IMG/VR virus record: IMGVR_UViG_3300042558_001045
Span: 1-34,168 of that record
DNA length: 34,168 nucleotides
Origin: a virus
Reading direction: 5' to 3' (one strand)
The notes beneath the pieces were generated by a model, which saw only the letters and a list, made by a program, of their open reading frames with translations, ran no database searches and was not told the DNA's origin. Within the stretch, counting starts at the first letter, position 1. Every line of letters starts with the position of its first letter. Shown one piece after another: positions 3,482-13,536 of the stretch. Both the position numbers and the translations under genes were made by a program.

Positions 3482-4477
3482 TTAATCTTGAAACTTTGCC
3501 ATTCTTTCGGCAAGCAATTCTTGTAATTTATCATTATACGCCTTGTCCTTTGCCGCTGGGCTTGTCGTTTGATACGCGGTAAATATCTTTGAGGCTTGTC
3601 CGTAAATGTTTGCAATGGTGAAATTTGCCCTCAGCCATTTGTCATTCAGGTTCCATGCCGCTTGAATAAACACCTTCAACGCCTCAAGGCTATCGCCCTG
3701 TCTGTGTATTTTGTCAATGTATTGCATAAGAAATTTCATTTGACCCGCGTCTTTGGGCATCATGATGTAATGTCCATTCTGGTCAGTCGGATACGCGGCG
3801 CCAGATAAGTTTTCGAAGGTTTGGCAAAACACGGAGAAGGCGGCGTAAGTGGGGGAGGGAATCTTTTCTTTTTCTTTTTTCGCGGAACTTTTTTCTTTTT
3901 CTAACTGTGTTATTAAAGTAAATGGATTAACCTTTTTACTTTGGTTAATTTCATTTTCAGTAATTTCAATTTTTTCAAATTCGGTAAAATCAGAATGATT
4001 TTCAATATTATCTGAGTTAGTAAATGTATTTAGTACTTGGTTAGCAACTGGTATAGGTTCGCCCTTTCGTGAAAATCGATTTGCCCTTTTGGAAATATCC
4101 ATTTGCCCATTTGGTAAAATGGTATTTCCCTTTTGGTCAAATCCATTATCTGGTAAATGAAAGTTATCTGAAAGGTATAAATCTTCGTTAACAAAGGCAT
4201 ACCAAATCGTTCTGTCGTAACCGATTTTATTATAATTACCTTTTATTAAAATACCTTTATCGACAAGGCTTTCAATAATCCTTCGCACTTGCTTTTCGCT
4301 CCAAAAGGTAAAATACAAACCAAGTGACTTATTTGTATTATACGTCCAATACTTACCATCATTAAAATTATTTCCATTAGCCTTATTTAACCTTATCCAA
4401 AATTGGAAGGATTTTATCATAATGGCTTCGTCAATACCGTAACGATTAGCAAATTCAACGTTAAATGAAAACTCCAT
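3482..4477 (-). CDS. DnaD-like replication initiator / replisome organiser
   Basis: A 331-residue protein with a winged-helix N-terminus. Residues about 20-105 include LNKANGNNFNDGKYWTYNT and SEKQVRRIIESLVDKGILIK, then a wing ending RTIWYAF. This is the usual layout of phage replication initiators that bind iterons and recruit the helicase. Residues about 110-225 form a low-complexity Asn/Glu/Lys linker. The C-terminal 100 residues (FENLSGAAYPTD to the end) form a helical domain with AAWNLNDKWLRANFTIANIY, reminiscent of DnaD/DnaB-type domains. The DNA encoding the linker carries a 22-bp-period repeat array, as in lambda O. The gene is preceded by a structured leader RNA that ends only 10 nt before the ATG, so expression is probably controlled there. 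Confidence 0.75.
   Translation of the reverse strand: MEFSFNVEFANRYGIDEAIMIKSFQFWIRLNKANGNNFNDGKYWTYNTNKSLGLYFTFWSEKQVRRIIESLVDKGILIKGNYNKIGYDRTIWYAFVNEDLYLSDNFHLPDNGFDQKGNTILPNGQMDISKRANRFSRKGEPIPVANQVLNTFTNSDNIENHSDFTEFEKIEITENEINQSKKVNPFTLITQLEKEKSSAKKEKEKIPSPTYAAFSVFCQTFENLSGAAYPTDQNGHYIMMPKDAGQMKFLMQYIDKIHRQGDSLEALKVFIQAAWNLNDKWLRANFTIANIYGQASKIFTAYQTTSPAAKDKAYNDKLQELLAERMAKFQD
4057..4166. repeat. Iteron-like array, candidate replication origin
   Basis: Imperfect repeats with core TTTGCCCTTTTGG recur every 22 bp. The CCC triplets begin at 4062, 4084, 4106 and 4128. Copies start at 4057, 4079, 4101 and 4123, with a degenerate fifth at 4145. Since 22 is not a multiple of three, the repeat is read in changing frames and cannot be explained by a repeated peptide; selection on DNA is implied. 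Twenty-two base pairs is about two helical turns, as expected for protein-bound iterons. AT-rich DNA (about 3890-4030) adjoins and could be the unwinding element. The location inside the initiator gene's linker matches lambda-type origins. Function is inferred. Confidence 0.7.
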
Positions 4478-4480
4478 AAG

Positions 4481-4586
4481 TTATAATAAAAAATGCCCAA
4501 CGAGTAGGAGTTCATTGGGCAATGTGAACAATGCGGATATTGTCCCGAAGTTCTTTTGAATCGCTCCTACCTGATTCAAAAGAATA
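4481..4586 (-). ncRNA. Three-hairpin leader RNA with kissing loops, copy 1
   Basis: Reading the minus strand, hairpin 1 has a 12-bp stem (arms 4573-4584 and 4551-4562, loop GCTCCTACCT on plus). Hairpin 2 has a 7-bp stem (4539-4545 with 4526-4532) with a G-U wobble. Hairpin 3 has a 10-bp stem (4512-4521 with 4494-4503), also with a G-U wobble, followed by six U (4488-4493). The loop of hairpin 1 contains GUAGGAG and the loop of hairpin 3 contains CUCCUAC, perfectly complementary over 7 nt. The wobbles pair only on this strand. The initiator ATG follows 10 nt after the U-tract. It resembles an attenuator or self-terminated small RNA. I know no named family for it. Confidence 0.75.
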
Positions 4587-4588
4587 AC

Positions 4589-4596
4589 CAAAGATA
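4589..4596 (-). promoter_or_regulatory. Bacteroidetes-type -7 box upstream of leader RNA copy 1
   Basis: The minus strand reads TATCTTTG, an exact TAnnTTTG -7 element. It lies 4 bp before hairpin 1, so transcription would begin at or just before the hairpin. A TTTG (4609-4612) lies upstream but only 12 bp away, too close for a normal -33 element. The promoter is therefore supported mainly by the -7 box and by the same arrangement at copy 2. Confidence 0.6.
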
Positions 4597-4612: not shown

Positions 4613-5182
4613 TTATATATAATATTTTGCTTCGCCTTCACCTTTTGACCAGTCAGCCAAAATAACACCTTTCTCAATTAACTTATTAACGGTTATGCAA
4701 TTAAAATGTGAGCCGCCGTCTTTTGTGTTAAATTTGTCTGTTGGATAAGCAAAGATTGATTTGTCTTTAAACTCTGGAAGCCTGATTAATTTGCGTAAAT
4801 CGTAAATAATATATCTGCTTATATTATCCTTTTCCTCGTCATAAAAACAATAAAAATAAAACCATGATTTATTGAGTGAAGAAAACTCCAAAAGTTTTTC
4901 GTACTCAGATTTTACCTCAGGGTTTTGGCTTCTTGTTTTAATCGTAATGTCAATAATGTCTCCGTACTTTTTTCGTGCCCTGTGACTTATTTTAAACTCA
5001 GGAATATTTACAAATAAGTCAATAGCGTTAATGGTATCGTCATATTTTCCAGATTCCTTAATAAATTCGACCAACGATATTTTATAAAGTCCTTGATTGA
5101 AAAATTTTGAAATATGCTCCTTTGCCTCTGGAAGGCTTTTGTCTGAGTACTTTCTAAATTCTTTATAATTAACACTTACCAT
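4613..5182 (-). CDS. Unknown protein overlapping the DNA methyltransferase gene
   Basis: A 189-residue protein starting at MVSVNYKEFRKYSDKSLP (ATG 5180-5182). The start overlaps the methyltransferase stop by 14 bp, so the two are translationally coupled. The N-terminal 60 residues are helical. The centre has KYGDIIDITIKTRS, where an acidic residue precedes a beta strand ending in Lys, a faint echo of a PD-(D/E)XK core, but the usual D/E-x-K acid is a Thr here. The C-terminus contains SHFNCITVNKLIEKG. As the gene directly follows a DNA methyltransferase it could be a restriction partner or an accessory of it. That is context only; no catalytic motif is certain. Confidence 0.6.
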   Translation of the reverse strand: MVSVNYKEFRKYSDKSLPEAKEHISKFFNQGLYKISLVEFIKESGKYDDTINAIDLFVNIPEFKISHRARKKYGDIIDITIKTRSQNPEVKSEYEKLLEFSSLNKSWFYFYCFYDEEKDNISRYIIYDLRKLIRLPEFKDKSIFAYPTDKFNTKDGGSHFNCITVNKLIEKGVILADWSKGEGEAKYYI

Positions 5183-6437
5183 CTTCAAGTCTTTTTAAAG
5201 TTATCTTATAATTTTGTTCGTCAATTTCGCATCCAATGAAATTTCTTTTTAATTGATTTGCCGCAATGACAGTTGAGCCACTTCCAAGGAAAGGATCGAA
5301 AATTGTTTCATTGACGTTGGTACTATTTTCAATGAGTTGCTTAATTAAATCAACGGGCTTTTGAGTGTTATGAAATCTTTCATCATTAAATCTGCATTGA
5401 ATTATATTTTTGGGTCTTGATAAAAATTCCCTGTTGCCTCCAGCGAAAACAATCATTTCATAAGAGCTCGAATAATTCCCTTTTAAGTCACCCATTCCCA
5501 TGAATAATTTATCCCATATTATGAGGTTCTTGATTTGAAAATGCTTTGAAATAATTGCATTGAATTGAGGATATATTTTCCAGTTACAAAAAATGTAAAT
5601 GTGTGCATTGTCTTTTAATTTGCTTTTTACTTCAAGTAACATTTCATCAAGCAAAAGCAAAGCATCGTCAATGTTTCCATCGTTTTCAATCTTGCGGCTC
5701 AGTTGATTGTCATACGCGCCAAATTGAATGTCAACGCCGTAGGGTGGGTCGGTTATTAAACAGTCAATACTTTTATCCTCAATGGTTTTAATAAACTCGA
5801 TACAATTTCCATGAAAAATATTTGTATTGCTTTCGTAAACTTTTTCAATTATCTCAATCGCCTTTTGCGTTTTTGATTGTTCATTCTCCTCCTTCTTGAT
5901 TTCCTTAAATGCCTCGTTTATGCTTATTTGCCCAGTGCTTACCTTTGCCTTGATTTCGGGGGAGGCGGTGGCTTCAATCTTCTTTACCTTGCTTATCGTA
6001 TCATGTGAAACGTTCGCAACTTTACCTAATTTATACCTTGTCTCATTTTCTAATTTATTTCCTTCCGCAGATTTCTGCGGAAGCAAAATACCTCCTTGTC
6101 CTCCTTTTTGCTTTTCCTTTGCTTTCTCATTGTAAACGCCTTCAAGATGCAAGGCTAAAACACTCCGTTGATAATTGTTTAAATTCCTTCTCCCGAATTG
6201 ATTTACAATCATCCAAACCTTTACCGTTAAAATATCTGGAAATTCCTTTTCCACGGTTTCAAAGTCAATGTCGTATTCCTGAGCAATCCTGTACCTGTTG
6301 TGTCCATCGACTAAAATACCGTTCCATGTCACCAATGGGTCGCGTATTCCTTCTTCAAGAATATTACGTTCCAGTTGCTTAAATTCCTCACTTGTTAACG
6401 GTGGGATTAAGACTTCAAGTTCTTTTAATATTTGCAT
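5169..6437 (-). CDS. ParB-like domain fused to DNA (N6/N4) methyltransferase
   Basis: A 422-residue two-domain protein starting at MQILKELEVLIPPL (ATG 6435-6437); a longer frame begins at TTG inside the leader RNA and is rejected. Residues 1-95 form a ParB/sulfiredoxin-like domain (ILVDGHNRYRIAQEY, 41-55, is the nucleotide-binding signature). Residues about 132-160 look like a helix-turn-helix (YKLGKVANVSHDTISKVKKI). Residues 200-422 form a beta-class amino-methyltransferase, with motif IV DPPYG (230-234) before motif I DPFLGSGST (381-389). It would methylate adenine N6 or cytosine N4 in phage DNA, to evade host restriction or mark the genome. This fusion type is common in phages. A structured RNA leader ends 6 nt before the start codon. 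Confidence 0.9.
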   Translation of the reverse strand: MQILKELEVLIPPLTSEEFKQLERNILEEGIRDPLVTWNGILVDGHNRYRIAQEYDIDFETVEKEFPDILTVKVWMIVNQFGRRNLNNYQRSVLALHLEGVYNEKAKEKQKGGQGGILLPQKSAEGNKLENETRYKLGKVANVSHDTISKVKKIEATASPEIKAKVSTGQISINEAFKEIKKEENEQSKTQKAIEIIEKVYESNTNIFHGNCIEFIKTIEDKSIDCLITDPPYGVDIQFGAYDNQLSRKIENDGNIDDALLLLDEMLLEVKSKLKDNAHIYIFCNWKIYPQFNAIISKHFQIKNLIIWDKLFMGMGDLKGNYSSSYEMIVFAGGNREFLSRPKNIIQCRFNDERFHNTQKPVDLIKQLIENSTNVNETIFDPFLGSGSTVIAANQLKRNFIGCEIDEQNYKITLKRLEDGKC

Positions 6438-6443
6438 GAGTAT

Positions 6444-6543
6444 AAAAAAAAATTGCCAACGAGTAGCAGTTCGTTGGCAAAGGGTTAGAACAATGGTTTG
6501 TTCCAATTTCCTTTTGAATACCTGCTACGCCATTCAAAAGAAC
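6444..6543 (-). ncRNA. Three-hairpin leader RNA with kissing loops, copy 2
   Basis: The order matches copy 1. Hairpin 1 has an 11-bp stem (6532-6542 with 6509-6519) including a G-U wobble. Hairpin 2 has a 6-bp stem (6498-6503 with 6488-6493). Hairpin 3 is a perfect 10-bp stem (6471-6480 with 6453-6462) followed by nine U (6444-6452). The loop of hairpin 1 contains GUAGCAG and that of hairpin 3 CUGCUAC, again a perfect 7-nt complement. Compared with copy 1, the fifth base of the loop motif and its partner both changed (C-G to G-C), and two pairs in stem 3 covary. The ParB-methyltransferase ATG starts 6 nt after the U-tract. Confidence 0.8.
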
Positions 6544-6547
6544 ATTA

Positions 6548-6555
6548 CAAATATA
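6548..6555 (-). promoter_or_regulatory. Bacteroidetes-type -7 box upstream of leader RNA copy 2
   Basis: The minus strand reads TATATTTG, an exact TAnnTTTG -7 element, 5 bp before hairpin 1. It sits 11 bp past the stop codon of the 42-residue gene. No clear -33 TTG is visible upstream. The equal position relative to hairpin 1 in both copies supports a real transcription start at the foot of the structure. Confidence 0.65.
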
Positions 6556-7410: not shown

Positions 7411-7512
7411 TAGTCAGAACGGGATTCGAACCCGCAAGTGGTACACCCAATTAATTCAGTTCCACCATCTGAATGTATTTAGGATGTGCGTCTACCATTC
7501 CGCCACCTGACT
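7411..7512 (-). tRNA. tRNA-like RNA 1 (Leu-type D arm, non-canonical anticodon region)
   Basis: The acceptor stem AGTCAGG/TCTGACT has 7 pairs including one G-U. It is followed by a D arm reading TGGCGGAATGGTAGACGC, as in class II tRNA-Leu, and a T arm GCGGG-TTCGAAT-CCCGT. The 52 nt between D and T stems are about 18 longer than normal. They fold as ACATCC with GGGTGT enclosing a perfect ATTCAG/CTGAAT hairpin, or as CATC/GATG with a 13-nt loop. I cannot draw a 5-bp stem with a 7-nt loop and U33, so no anticodon is assigned. No CCA is encoded. It may be a true tRNA with an insertion, a decayed one, or a tRNA mimic. Confidence 0.6.
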
Positions 7513-8058: not shown

Positions 8059-8134
8059 AATTTGCAAGTGAAGGAATCTAATCTTCGTCTTTTTGCCGTC
8101 GCAAAACATTTTAACACTAAACTAACTTGCGCCA

Positions 8135-8820: not shown

Positions 8821-8980
8821 ACCAGCCGCCGCCGTGTTTTCGGTAAGCTATCGGGACGAAAAAATAAGGAAAAAATTGCTTGATTTGCAATTTCAACTTT
8901 GGAAGGAAACAAACGTCAAACACTCGATGGAGGAGGTTTTAAACCTTTTATTGGACACATACCAAAAACAAAGTAAATGA
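8807..8980 (+). CDS. Small unknown protein (57 aa)
   Basis: A 57-residue gene beginning MNVNKPAAAVFSVSYRDEKI. It overlaps the previous gene by 14 bp, and its TGA stop overlaps the start of the glycosyltransferase as ATGA. These couplings at both ends make it a real gene despite its size. A short strand (AVFSVSYRDE) followed by a helix (SMEEVLNLLLDTYQKQ) resembles a ribbon-helix-helix-like or dimerisation unit, but the match is too weak to name. Confidence 0.65.
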   Translation: MNVNKPAAAVFSVSYRDEKIRKKLLDLQFQLWKETNVKHSMEEVLNLLLDTYQKQSK

Positions 8981-9981
8981 GGTTAGGCATTGTCACCAAT
9001 TTAACCAGTCCAACGACCGATTATTATCGTTCCGTTAATCCATTCATGCGGCTTCGCTCCCAGATGATAAATCTTCATATTACTTACCTTAATCCTGAGA
9101 CGGTAAAGTGGTATGATTTTTACGACGTTGACGTTATCCTGTTTCAACGGCCCAATGGTGACGGAATGTTATCAATGATCGCGGAGGCGAAGAAGATGGG
9201 TAAAAAAATCATTCTTGACCACGACGATTTATTACATGAGGTTAACGCTGCGAATCCAGCGTCGGCACACTTCGGTAAAACGCAGGTAAAAGAATCTGTT
9301 GAAAAGGCTTTCAAGTATGCCGATTATATAATCGTTTCAACGCCGTACCTCAAAGAGTTTTACAAACAATTCTTTGACGAAAGTAAAATAATGGTTATTC
9401 CTAACGCTATTGACTTTCAAGTGACGCCACTTTGTCCCGTGTCACCTGATAAACTTGAGGCAAAGATTAAACGCGTGTTGTGGCGTGGAAGCATGACACA
9501 CATTGAGGATTTAAAAACCGTGGATATATTTTGGCATTATGTCAGCAGCCGCAAGGACACAGAGGTTGCATTTATTGGTATTCCTGAGTGGTTGGGCAAA
9601 ACGCTTTACCCAAATGTAAAGGTCATACCGTGGAACAATTCCTTGTTTCAATACTTTGAGCTCATTAAAAACAGTGCGGCACATTACGCCGTGTTCCCGT
9701 TGACAAATGACAATTTTAACCAAAGTAAGTCGAATAACTTTGCGATGGAGATGCTTGTCACTGGTTGCGTTCCTTATGCACCGAAGGAAATAACGGAGTT
9801 CAATGTCCCAGGCGTGCGGTTGTACGAGGGCAACGACGATTTAAGCGGACAATTTGAAAAGGCGTTGGAAAAGGACGGGGATTATTTTAATCATTTGCAG
9901 GCTGGGAGAAAATGGCTTTTGACTGAGCGAAATCTTCTCACCGTCAACAACAAACGTAAACAAGTGTTAAAAAGTATATGA
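8977..9981 (+). CDS. GT-B fold glycosyltransferase (family 4-like)
   Basis: A 334-residue protein with two Rossmann-like halves. The N-terminal half has MRLGIVTNLTSPTTDYYRS, then DVDVILFQRP and KKIILDHDDLL. The inter-domain region has YIIVSTPYLKEFY and MVIPNAIDF, the segment that usually precedes the donor-binding half. The C-terminal half has RVLWRGSMTHIEDL and SNNFAMEMLVTGCVP, where the glutamate (E in AMEM) is the family's nucleotide-sugar-binding acid. It should transfer a sugar from a nucleotide donor. The acceptor may be modified phage DNA, because a ParB-like protein and a TET-associated-type glycosyltransferase follow, or a host glycan. It is coupled to the next gene by ATGA. Confidence 0.85.
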   Translation: MRLGIVTNLTSPTTDYYRSVNPFMRLRSQMINLHITYLNPETVKWYDFYDVDVILFQRPNGDGMLSMIAEAKKMGKKIILDHDDLLHEVNAANPASAHFGKTQVKESVEKAFKYADYIIVSTPYLKEFYKQFFDESKIMVIPNAIDFQVTPLCPVSPDKLEAKIKRVLWRGSMTHIEDLKTVDIFWHYVSSRKDTEVAFIGIPEWLGKTLYPNVKVIPWNNSLFQYFELIKNSAAHYAVFPLTNDNFNQSKSNNFAMEMLVTGCVPYAPKEITEFNVPGVRLYEGNDDLSGQFEKALEKDGDYFNHLQAGRKWLLTERNLLTVNNKRKQVLKSI

Positions 9982-10556: not shown

Positions 10557-11348
10557 ATGCAAAATAAATTCCCTGTTTACATAATTAGCAAAGGAAGATT
10601 TGACGTTACAATGACTGCAAATTTATTTGAAGCAGATAACTTAGATTATTTAATAGCAGTTGAGCCACAAGAATATGATAGTTATGTAAATAAATTGGGA
10701 AAAGAAAGGGTGTTAAAATTACCTTTTGCAAATTTAGGACTTGGAAGTTTTCCTGCAAGAAATTTTTGTTGGGAGCATTCGATAAAATTAGGATATACGC
10801 ATCATTGGTTATTTGACGATAACATAACATCTTTTTATAAATGGATTAATGGAAAAAGATGTCAAATAAAAGACATAAAAACATCTTTGTCATATATTGA
10901 AAATTACACATTAAAAAATAATATTGATTTGGGAGGATTTGAGGAATATAATTTTGTTAGAAAAATACCTAAAAAACCTTTTAAAAATAATTGTCATATT
11001 TATTCAGCATTGTTAATAAAAAATAGTTTGCCTTATCGGTGGAGACTTAAATATAATGAGGATGTAGATTTGTGTTTACAAGTATTACATAATGGAGGTA
11101 GTACTGGAAGTTGTGTTTATTATACAATTAATAAAGTAAGTACGTCCAAAAAAATGAAAGGAGGGAATCAAGATGAATTATACAAAGGCAATGACCCAAA
11201 AAAGAAACTTTTAAAAGCAAAAATGTTAGAGGCACAGTGGCCGCAATATGCAAAAACTGTAATACGTTTTAACCGTATTCATCATTTTGTTGATTGGAAA
11301 GTTTTTAAAAATAATGGAATCAATTCTCGTTTAAATCTCGAATCATGA
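10557..11348 (+). CDS. TET-associated-type glycosyltransferase (DNA hypermodification)
   Basis: A 263-residue protein with the pattern of the TET-associated glycosyltransferase (TAGT/GREB1-related) family: PVYIISKGR (6-14), VEPQEY (35-40), LPFANLGLGSFPARN (55-69), WLFDDNI (84-90) and SLPYRWRLKYNEDVDLCL (157-174), then KGGNQDELY. The acidic FDDN and NED sites fit metal and nucleotide-sugar binding. Known relatives are linked to glycosylating hydroxymethylated cytosine in phage DNA made by TET-type dioxygenases. No TET-like gene is in this window. The gene is much richer in A+T than its neighbours, suggesting transfer. It is coupled to the small terminase by ATGA. Confidence 0.8.
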   Translation: MQNKFPVYIISKGRFDVTMTANLFEADNLDYLIAVEPQEYDSYVNKLGKERVLKLPFANLGLGSFPARNFCWEHSIKLGYTHHWLFDDNITSFYKWINGKRCQIKDIKTSLSYIENYTLKNNIDLGGFEEYNFVRKIPKKPFKNNCHIYSALLIKNSLPYRWRLKYNEDVDLCLQVLHNGGSTGSCVYYTINKVSTSKKMKGGNQDELYKGNDPKKKLLKAKMLEAQWPQYAKTVIRFNRIHHFVDWKVFKNNGINSRLNLES

Positions 11349-12872: not shown

Positions 12873-13097
12873 ATGACACCAAAAGAAAAAGCAGAGGAAT
12901 TAGTAAATAAATTTAGTGAACGCAGAAAAATTTTAACAGAAACAAAAGGCTGGGTGGAATATATTGATTCATCCAAGGCAAAAGGACACGCGTTGACTGC
13001 GGTTGATGAAATTTTAAAATGTGCTATTTGGAAACATAATAGCATTGAACACACTAATTTTTGGAAAGAAGTAAAAAAAGAAATACAAAACCTATGA
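12873..13097 (+). CDS. Tandem-array small protein, copy 1 (MTPKEKAEEL type)
   Basis: A 74-residue protein that opens MTPKEKAEELVNKFSERRKI and ends FWKEVKKEIQNL. The same ends recur in the next two genes. The centre carries KAKGHALTAVDEILKCAIW, conserved in type (K-x-A-x-x-AVDE) between copies 1 and 2. It is a compact helical protein of unknown function. Its stop overlaps the start of copy 2 as ATGA. Many Bacteroidetes phages carry such short proteins, and they may be structural accessories or regulators. Confidence 0.7.
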   Translation: MTPKEKAEELVNKFSERRKILTETKGWVEYIDSSKAKGHALTAVDEILKCAIWKHNSIEHTNFWKEVKKEIQNL

Positions 13098-13312
13098 CAC
13101 CAAAAGAAAAAGCAGAGGAGTTAATTGATAAGTTCAGGAATGAAATAACCTCATTTTTAGGCGATAACATGAAAAAAAATAATGCTAAAAAATGCGCCTT
13201 GGTTGCCGTGGATGAGTTAATAAAAATCCATTATCTTTTAACGGCTACACATGACACATCCCCTTCCATTAATTATTGGAAAGAAGTAAAAAAAGAAATA
13301 CAAAACCTATGA
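13094..13312 (+). CDS. Tandem-array small protein, copy 2
   Basis: A 72-residue paralogue starting at MTPKEKAEELIDKFRNEITS; an earlier Met in the same frame lies inside copy 1 and is rejected because of the ATGA overlap here. The core KKCALVAVDELIKIHYLL matches copy 1, and the end YWKEVKKEIQNL is nearly identical. The first and last stretches are almost the same DNA as in copy 1, so the duplication is either recent or kept uniform by recombination. Confidence 0.7.
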   Translation: MTPKEKAEELIDKFRNEITSFLGDNMKKNNAKKCALVAVDELIKIHYLLTATHDTSPSINYWKEVKKEIQNL

Positions 13313-13536
13313 CGCCAAAAGAAAAAGCAGAGGAATTATTCACCCATTACCACAACCTTATTCAAAGCATCGGAGGCGAACTTGGACAGGAGATCCTTGT
13401 TTCAATCCTTGCAAAGCAAAGCGCCTTGTTTACCGCACGGGAGGTTATGAAAGAAAAATGGAACATTGAGGTAGAAGGCAGCGAAGATGAATATTATTGG
13501 TGGGAAGAGGTTGAACACGAAATAGAAAGTATATGA
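13309..13536 (+). CDS. Tandem-array small protein, copy 3 (diverged)
   Basis: A 75-residue paralogue starting MTPKEKAEELFTHYHNLIQS. The middle (LAKQSALFTAREVMKEKWNI) is diverged from copies 1 and 2 but keeps the A-x-x-A-x-x-E helix. The end is YYWWEEVEHEIESI, acidic where the others are basic. Both ends keep ATGA overlaps. The function is unknown. Confidence 0.7.
   Translation: MTPKEKAEELFTHYHNLIQSIGGELGQEILVSILAKQSALFTAREVMKEKWNIEVEGSEDEYYWWEEVEHEIESI

Follow-up and report, generated by a model that had tools for sequence, protein, structure and literature searches.

In the phage DNA analysed here we found two copies of a leader of about 95 nt, which belong to an undescribed RNA family. In this family the loop of a 5'-terminal hairpin (H1) is complementary to the loop of a terminator-type hairpin (H3) lying downstream, and both the selection acting on this loop-loop pairing and the structure that presents it are well supported. 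As to its role, we lean with moderate confidence towards a cis-acting attenuator of early mRNA, in which H1 would kiss the intrinsic-terminator hairpin H3 and so set the level of read-through. The window, i.e. the whole stretch of 34,168 nucleotides that was analysed, is a virus record (IMG/VR IMGVR_UViG_3300042558_001045), whose best terminase matches are to phages of Riemerella and Nonlabens; together with the promoter type, these matches point to a Bacteroidota host.

Both elements are located on the minus strand, copy 1 at 4596-4475 and copy 2 at 6555-6435, and their parts come in identical order: a TAnnTTTG -7 box, the 5'-terminal H1, a short H2, a GC-rich H3, a U-tract and, a few bases past it, the ATG (Table 1). 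This shared order had been described in the initial annotation, and every element of it was confirmed. The same holds for the exact complementarity of the two loops over 7 nt: in copy 1, H1 and H3 carry GUAGGAG and CUCCUAC, and in copy 2 they carry GUAGCAG and CUGCUAC, so that the copies differ by one compensated pair. A descriptor that demanded exact complementarity of 7-nt loops, two stems of 8 or more and a T-run matched only these two elements in the window, while 100 dinucleotide shuffles gave 0.04 matches per window, and none when the promoter box was included. Between the methylase gene and the leader of the replication initiator lies a gene for a 191-aa protein (4613-5188, minus strand), for which no Pfam or PHROG match was found.

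Table 1. Parts of the two leader copies and the genes that follow them (window coordinates).
Feature	Position	Strand	Remarks
Copy 1, -7 promoter box	4589..4596	-	TATCTTTG
Copy 1, hairpin H1	4551..4584	-	12 bp, 5'-terminal; in the 53-sequence alignment 96% of cells paired, 9/12 pairs with double changes
Copy 1, H1 loop	4564..4570	-	GUAGGAG, kissing strand 1
Copy 1, hairpin H2	4526..4545	-	spacer hairpin; folds in 53/53 aligned sequences
Copy 1, hairpin H3	4494..4521	-	terminator-type stem, 10 bp; in the 53-sequence alignment 97.7% paired, 10/10 pairs with double changes
Copy 1, H3 loop	4504..4510	-	CUCCUAC, kissing strand 2
Copy 1, U-tract	4488..4493	-	intrinsic-terminator-like site; family: T 74-100% over 8 positions
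Copy 1, start codon	4477	-	ATG
Gene behind copy 1	3482..4477	-	replication initiator, DnaD-like helicase-loader type; PHROG 11233, E 4e-31
Copy 2, -7 promoter box	6548..6555	-	TATATTTG
Copy 2, hairpin H1	6509..6542	-
Copy 2, H1 loop	6522..6528	-	GUAGCAG
Copy 2, hairpin H2	6485..6506	-
Copy 2, hairpin H3	6453..6480	-	terminator-type
Copy 2, H3 loop	6463..6469	-	CUGCUAC
Copy 2, U-tract	6444..6452	-
Copy 2, start codon	6437	-	ATG
Gene behind copy 2	5169..6437	-	ParB-like / N6-N4 DNA methyltransferase fusion

The element is a family that extends across dozens of viral contigs, far beyond one duplication. More than 200 viral loci were collected through relatives of the rep, methylase and HNH proteins and through DNA patterns of H1. 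A first alignment comprised 53 distinct elements, chosen partly by loop complementarity; the loop-loop helix, tested in it as a pseudoknot, was 100% Watson-Crick paired, with double changes at 7/7 pairs. The covariation score observed in this alignment was reached by 0/500 shuffles, and in RNAalifold only H1 and H3 appeared. Because the 53 members had been picked partly by loop complementarity, we built a covariance model from which the loop pairing was omitted. This loop-blind model recognised 89 distinct sense-strand members among the collected loci, scoring roughly 65-110 bits, as against less than 38 bits for matches on the opposite strand. Homologues that keep the stems and lose the loop complementarity were the case that the initial annotation had named as telling against its proposal of a selected RNA tertiary contact. 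Among the 89 members, 88 have at least seven perfect Watson-Crick loop pairs, and the single exception (L253) retains six pairs beside one G-A mismatch, so that the proposal is supported.

The loop letters themselves are far from constant. The one compensated pair that separates the window copies grows to 18 loop types among the 89 homologues, and at least 24 changes of type were counted on a tree built with the loops masked. Within the scored region, L126 and L103 differ by a single compensated loop pair (CTAGACA/TGTCTAG versus GTAGACA/TGTCTAC), and some other near-identical element pairs likewise differ in this way only. The loop helix contains no G-U pair in the 98 cells of its 14 distinct versions, while the stems have 37 in 559; this can be explained by the fact that non-Watson-Crick pairs destabilise an RNA interloop helix (PMC10907184). 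A tendency of stem G-U pairs to favour the minus strand had been noted for the window copies, and it holds among the homologues, where most stem G-U pairs fall on the transcribed strand (81 G-U versus 16 A-C cells).

The position of the element is as regular as its fold. TAnnTTTG is the -7 motif that belongs to the primary sigma factor of Bacteroidota (PMC7366714). A TA..TTT[G/A] box ends 17-19 nt before the H1 loop in each of the unique elements tabulated; as the tabulation script required an upstream box and left its distance free, the finding here is the constant distance and not the presence of the box. H1 starts at the expected transcription start. All 89 members lie directly upstream of an ORF in sense orientation, and the distance from the base of H3 to the ATG is 12-31 nt (median 15, mostly 13-17), whatever gene family follows. 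The genes behind the leaders fall into several unrelated families, among them four or more kinds of replication or helix-turn-helix protein, the ParB-methylase, an AP2/HNH endonuclease and others, and the leader is thus a cassette moving between genes. The leader is absent from methylase homologues of 76% identity that stand in a different gene context (L197-L200), and it thus tracks operon position, not the methylase. Upstream of a distant ParB-methylase relative (L211:2330-2500) there is a different structured stretch, CCCCCGGCAGGG ... GCGGGGTTTTTT, which may be an unrelated leader of analogous kind.

H3 and the U-tract have the canonical shape of an intrinsic terminator. The 10-bp stem is followed at once by a T-rich tract of 8 nt with almost no G or C, although in a few members the U-tract is poor (L030/L039, GGGCGTTCTCATTTTT; L055). 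For comparison with H3, an ordinary strong intrinsic terminator (GGGGCATAgaaaTTATGCCTC + T8) is located at about 2650-2725 on the minus strand of the window, and in the same place in several relatives. Judging from its terminator-like sequence, H3 would terminate transcription in vivo, and since there is no room for another promoter between the U-tract and the ATG, expression of the gene would have to pass through it. A stable hairpin placed directly before a U-tract, between promoter and start codon, is what a terminator attenuator has. However, neither a conserved, mutually exclusive antiterminator pairing nor a sensor such as an aptamer or a leader peptide was found in the family, and therefore we say that the leader works like an attenuator and do not file it as a classical one.

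The main rival to the attenuator is a structural 5' UTR acting in mRNA stability or translation. According to this explanation the rod formed by the kissing H1 and H3 protects the 5' end against nucleases, and a hairpin 15 nt before the AUG assists in placing the ribosome, with no termination in vivo. The start of H1 at the expected transcription start is in line with this idea, the tight spacing between H3 and the ATG could equally mean a translational role, and structure near the start codon does tune translation in Flavobacterium (PMC6847099). On the other hand, an 8-nt U-tract at the base of a stem is the signature of an intrinsic terminator, and this tract follows the stem rather than the ATG, as the U-run begins at the H3 stem base even in members whose ATG is 29-31 nt away. 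Moreover, the leaders carry U at -12 and -13 (97% at -13), two positions at which A is preferred in Flavobacterium translation (PMC6847099), and thus a terminator fits better than a translation enhancer. Taking both sides together, we consider the structural 5' UTR possible, yet unlikely.

The attenuator that we favour would work as follows. Host RNA polymerase with the primary sigma factor would start a few bases before H1, making H1 the 5'-terminal hairpin of a leader of about 95 nt on an early phage mRNA. H2 would hold H1 and H3 apart, H3 with its U-tract would terminate transcription a few bases short of the start codon, and the gene would be expressed only by read-through. RNA polymerase hides about 14 nt of RNA. 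With this geometry the H3 loop would emerge while the polymerase stands on the U-tract, and the kissing complex of the two 7-nt loops could thus form at the moment of the termination decision. By setting the fraction of read-through, the kiss would fix how strongly rep, the methylase gene and other early genes are expressed. We expect the kiss to alter read-through, in either direction: kiss and stem can coexist, since a helix of seven base pairs bridges the deep groove at close enough range, and so the kiss could also speed closure of the stem. Neither an aptamer nor a leader peptide nor an alternative pairing is conserved in the family, so that the leader may do no more than provide a set-point.

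When two leaders reside in one genome, each appears to be suited to pair with itself. In all 21 two-copy contigs the predicted pairing in cis (-7.6 to -11.2 kcal/mol) exceeds that between co-resident leaders (-5.4 kcal/mol or weaker) by several kcal/mol, which argues for independent leaders. The two copies share a loop in none of these contigs (0/21), an observation with little statistical power, since the sets of loops found at the two loci differ for the most part. Divergence of the loops may keep the leaders independent. One could go further and imagine a self-addressed, modular leader, whose 5' hairpin controls the terminator of the same RNA through a kiss of 7 bp and whose loop pair is a freely rewritable address, selected against cross-talk with co-resident or superinfecting relatives; the family would then comprise about 18 orthogonal regulators. 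We regard this extension as doubtful.

Covariation by itself does not separate intramolecular from intermolecular pairing, and explanations in which the loops meet in trans have to be weighed as well. The element could be a stand-alone small RNA of about 95 nt that pairs through its loops with its own copies or with those of superinfecting relatives, as an immunity or copy-number determinant like the P4 CI RNA, the gene nearby being a matter of compactness. The unit is indeed complete from promoter to terminator, and its loop helix diversifies while staying strictly complementary, like the specificity loops of antisense systems; the difference between loops in the two-copy contigs would also agree, were it not statistically uninformative. 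However, the two loops belong to one molecule and lie about 60 nt from each other, so that the contact in cis should prevail; the window has no other hairpin that combines such a loop with a comparable stem and terminator, and the constrained distance to an ORF in 89/89 members speaks against a gene that is near only by chance. We therefore regard a trans-acting RNA as improbable. Kissing between molecules that builds multimers, in the manner of the phi29 packaging RNA, is very improbable: two complementary loops per RNA can in principle form rings, and covariation alone is compatible with them, but the conserved spacer of 22-32 nt with H2 suits an intramolecular bridge, Rfam gives no match, and the two copies per genome have different loops and lie beside early genes, not packaging genes. 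A DNA-level signal (an origin or protein-binding inverted repeats) has just as little in its favour, for although one copy precedes the replication initiator and the loop pairs in the alignment are free of G-U, the stem G-U pairs lie mostly on one strand, the promoter and U-tract are fixed, and many copies precede non-replication genes.

The claim of the initial annotation that no known family has this layout also stood up to searching. No Rfam 15 family, Flavo-1, c4 antisense and the riboswitches included, matched at the gathering threshold, and a permissive search gave a best E of 0.039, far below any gathering score. The isolate phages and plasmids searched contained no copy, only short chance matches. 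In bacterial genomes the H1 pattern picked out 15 loci, which were rejected as chance-like, since their model scores reached at most 32.4 bits against the floor of roughly 65 bits of real members. The covariance model found nothing in 395 Bacteroidota genomes and 296 genomes of one family, a weak negative, the fast filter scoring 9-12 candidates per genome. Neither did the literature searched contain a description of a phage leader with a kissing-loop terminator.

The closest workings are those of the cobalamin riboswitch kissing loop, the P4 CI RNA and the pT181 attenuators, each with a defining feature that the leader lacks or may lack. In the cobalamin riboswitch (L5-L13), as in the leader, loop-loop kissing in cis connects an upstream domain with the expression-platform hairpin (PMC10907184). 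The leader, however, lacks a ligand-binding core, and its loop letters are hypervariable; we rejected a riboswitch with a kissing expression platform because the unpaired nucleotides that would bind a ligand are not conserved, the family conservation line having no unpaired core. The CI RNA of satellite phage P4, with seqA and seqC, is likewise a phage RNA preceding replication genes, in which complementary segments within a single transcript govern premature termination (PMC4825925). CI is processed and acts in trans as an antisense RNA in lysogeny, whereas the leader pairs a hairpin loop with a terminator loop on one short RNA. No integrase or repressor was found among the window proteins scanned, which cover part of the ORFs. 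Attenuators of the pT181 type share with the leader a promoter-proximal hairpin, an intrinsic terminator preceding a rep gene, recognition between loops and a specificity that resides in the loop region (PMC3753616). Their partner, though, is transcribed as antisense RNA from the opposite strand, while the partner loop of the leader is on the same transcript. A plasmid-type antisense RNA (ColE1 RNAI, pT181 RNAI) was rejected in view of both loops being on one transcript with one promoter, and of the low opposite-strand scores.

Two further systems are similar in part. The pRNA of phi29, likewise a small RNA of a phage, also has two hairpin loops that are complementary. Its pairing, though, joins separate molecules, and it does not serve as a terminator-bearing mRNA leader; the phage leader, for its part, has no Rfam match. 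In the leader of the replication initiator gene repZ of IncI/IncB plasmids there is, as here, a long-range loop pairing, a pseudoknot that opens a Shine-Dalgarno site and works with a leader peptide and an antisense RNA. By comparison, the phage family has no conserved leader ORF, and Bacteroidota do not use Shine-Dalgarno sites (PMC6847099).

Several other features of the window deserve mention. Two tRNA-like genes on the minus strand, at 8062-8131 and 7411-7512, gave 41.9 and 35.4 bits with Rfam and were not called by ARAGORN; the latter has a long insert or variable arm, and similar tRNA matches occur in the related contigs L222, L239 and L250. Glycosyltransferase genes are located at 8977-9981 and 10557-11348 on the plus strand. 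The second matches the beta-glucosyl-HMC-alpha-glucosyltransferase family, and this match, taken with the ParB-methylase, hints at modified phage DNA. At 12873-13536 (plus strand) three consecutive, overlapping small ORFs have a common motif, MTPKEKAEEL, near their start and resemble tandem duplicates.

The family described here is thus absent from Rfam and comes with unusually clean evidence for a tertiary contact: 18 loop types and at least 24 changes of type, with hardly an exception, and neither a ligand nor a leader peptide nor an antisense partner that would account for the contact. It would reveal by what means phages of Bacteroidota, in which Shine-Dalgarno signals are not used, set their early-gene dosage. 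Since nature has provided a library of kissing-loop pairs on a constant scaffold, one can test directly how a kiss affects an intrinsic terminator. If the loop pair does serve as an address, the family would in addition offer about 18 kissing-loop regulators that are naturally orthogonal.
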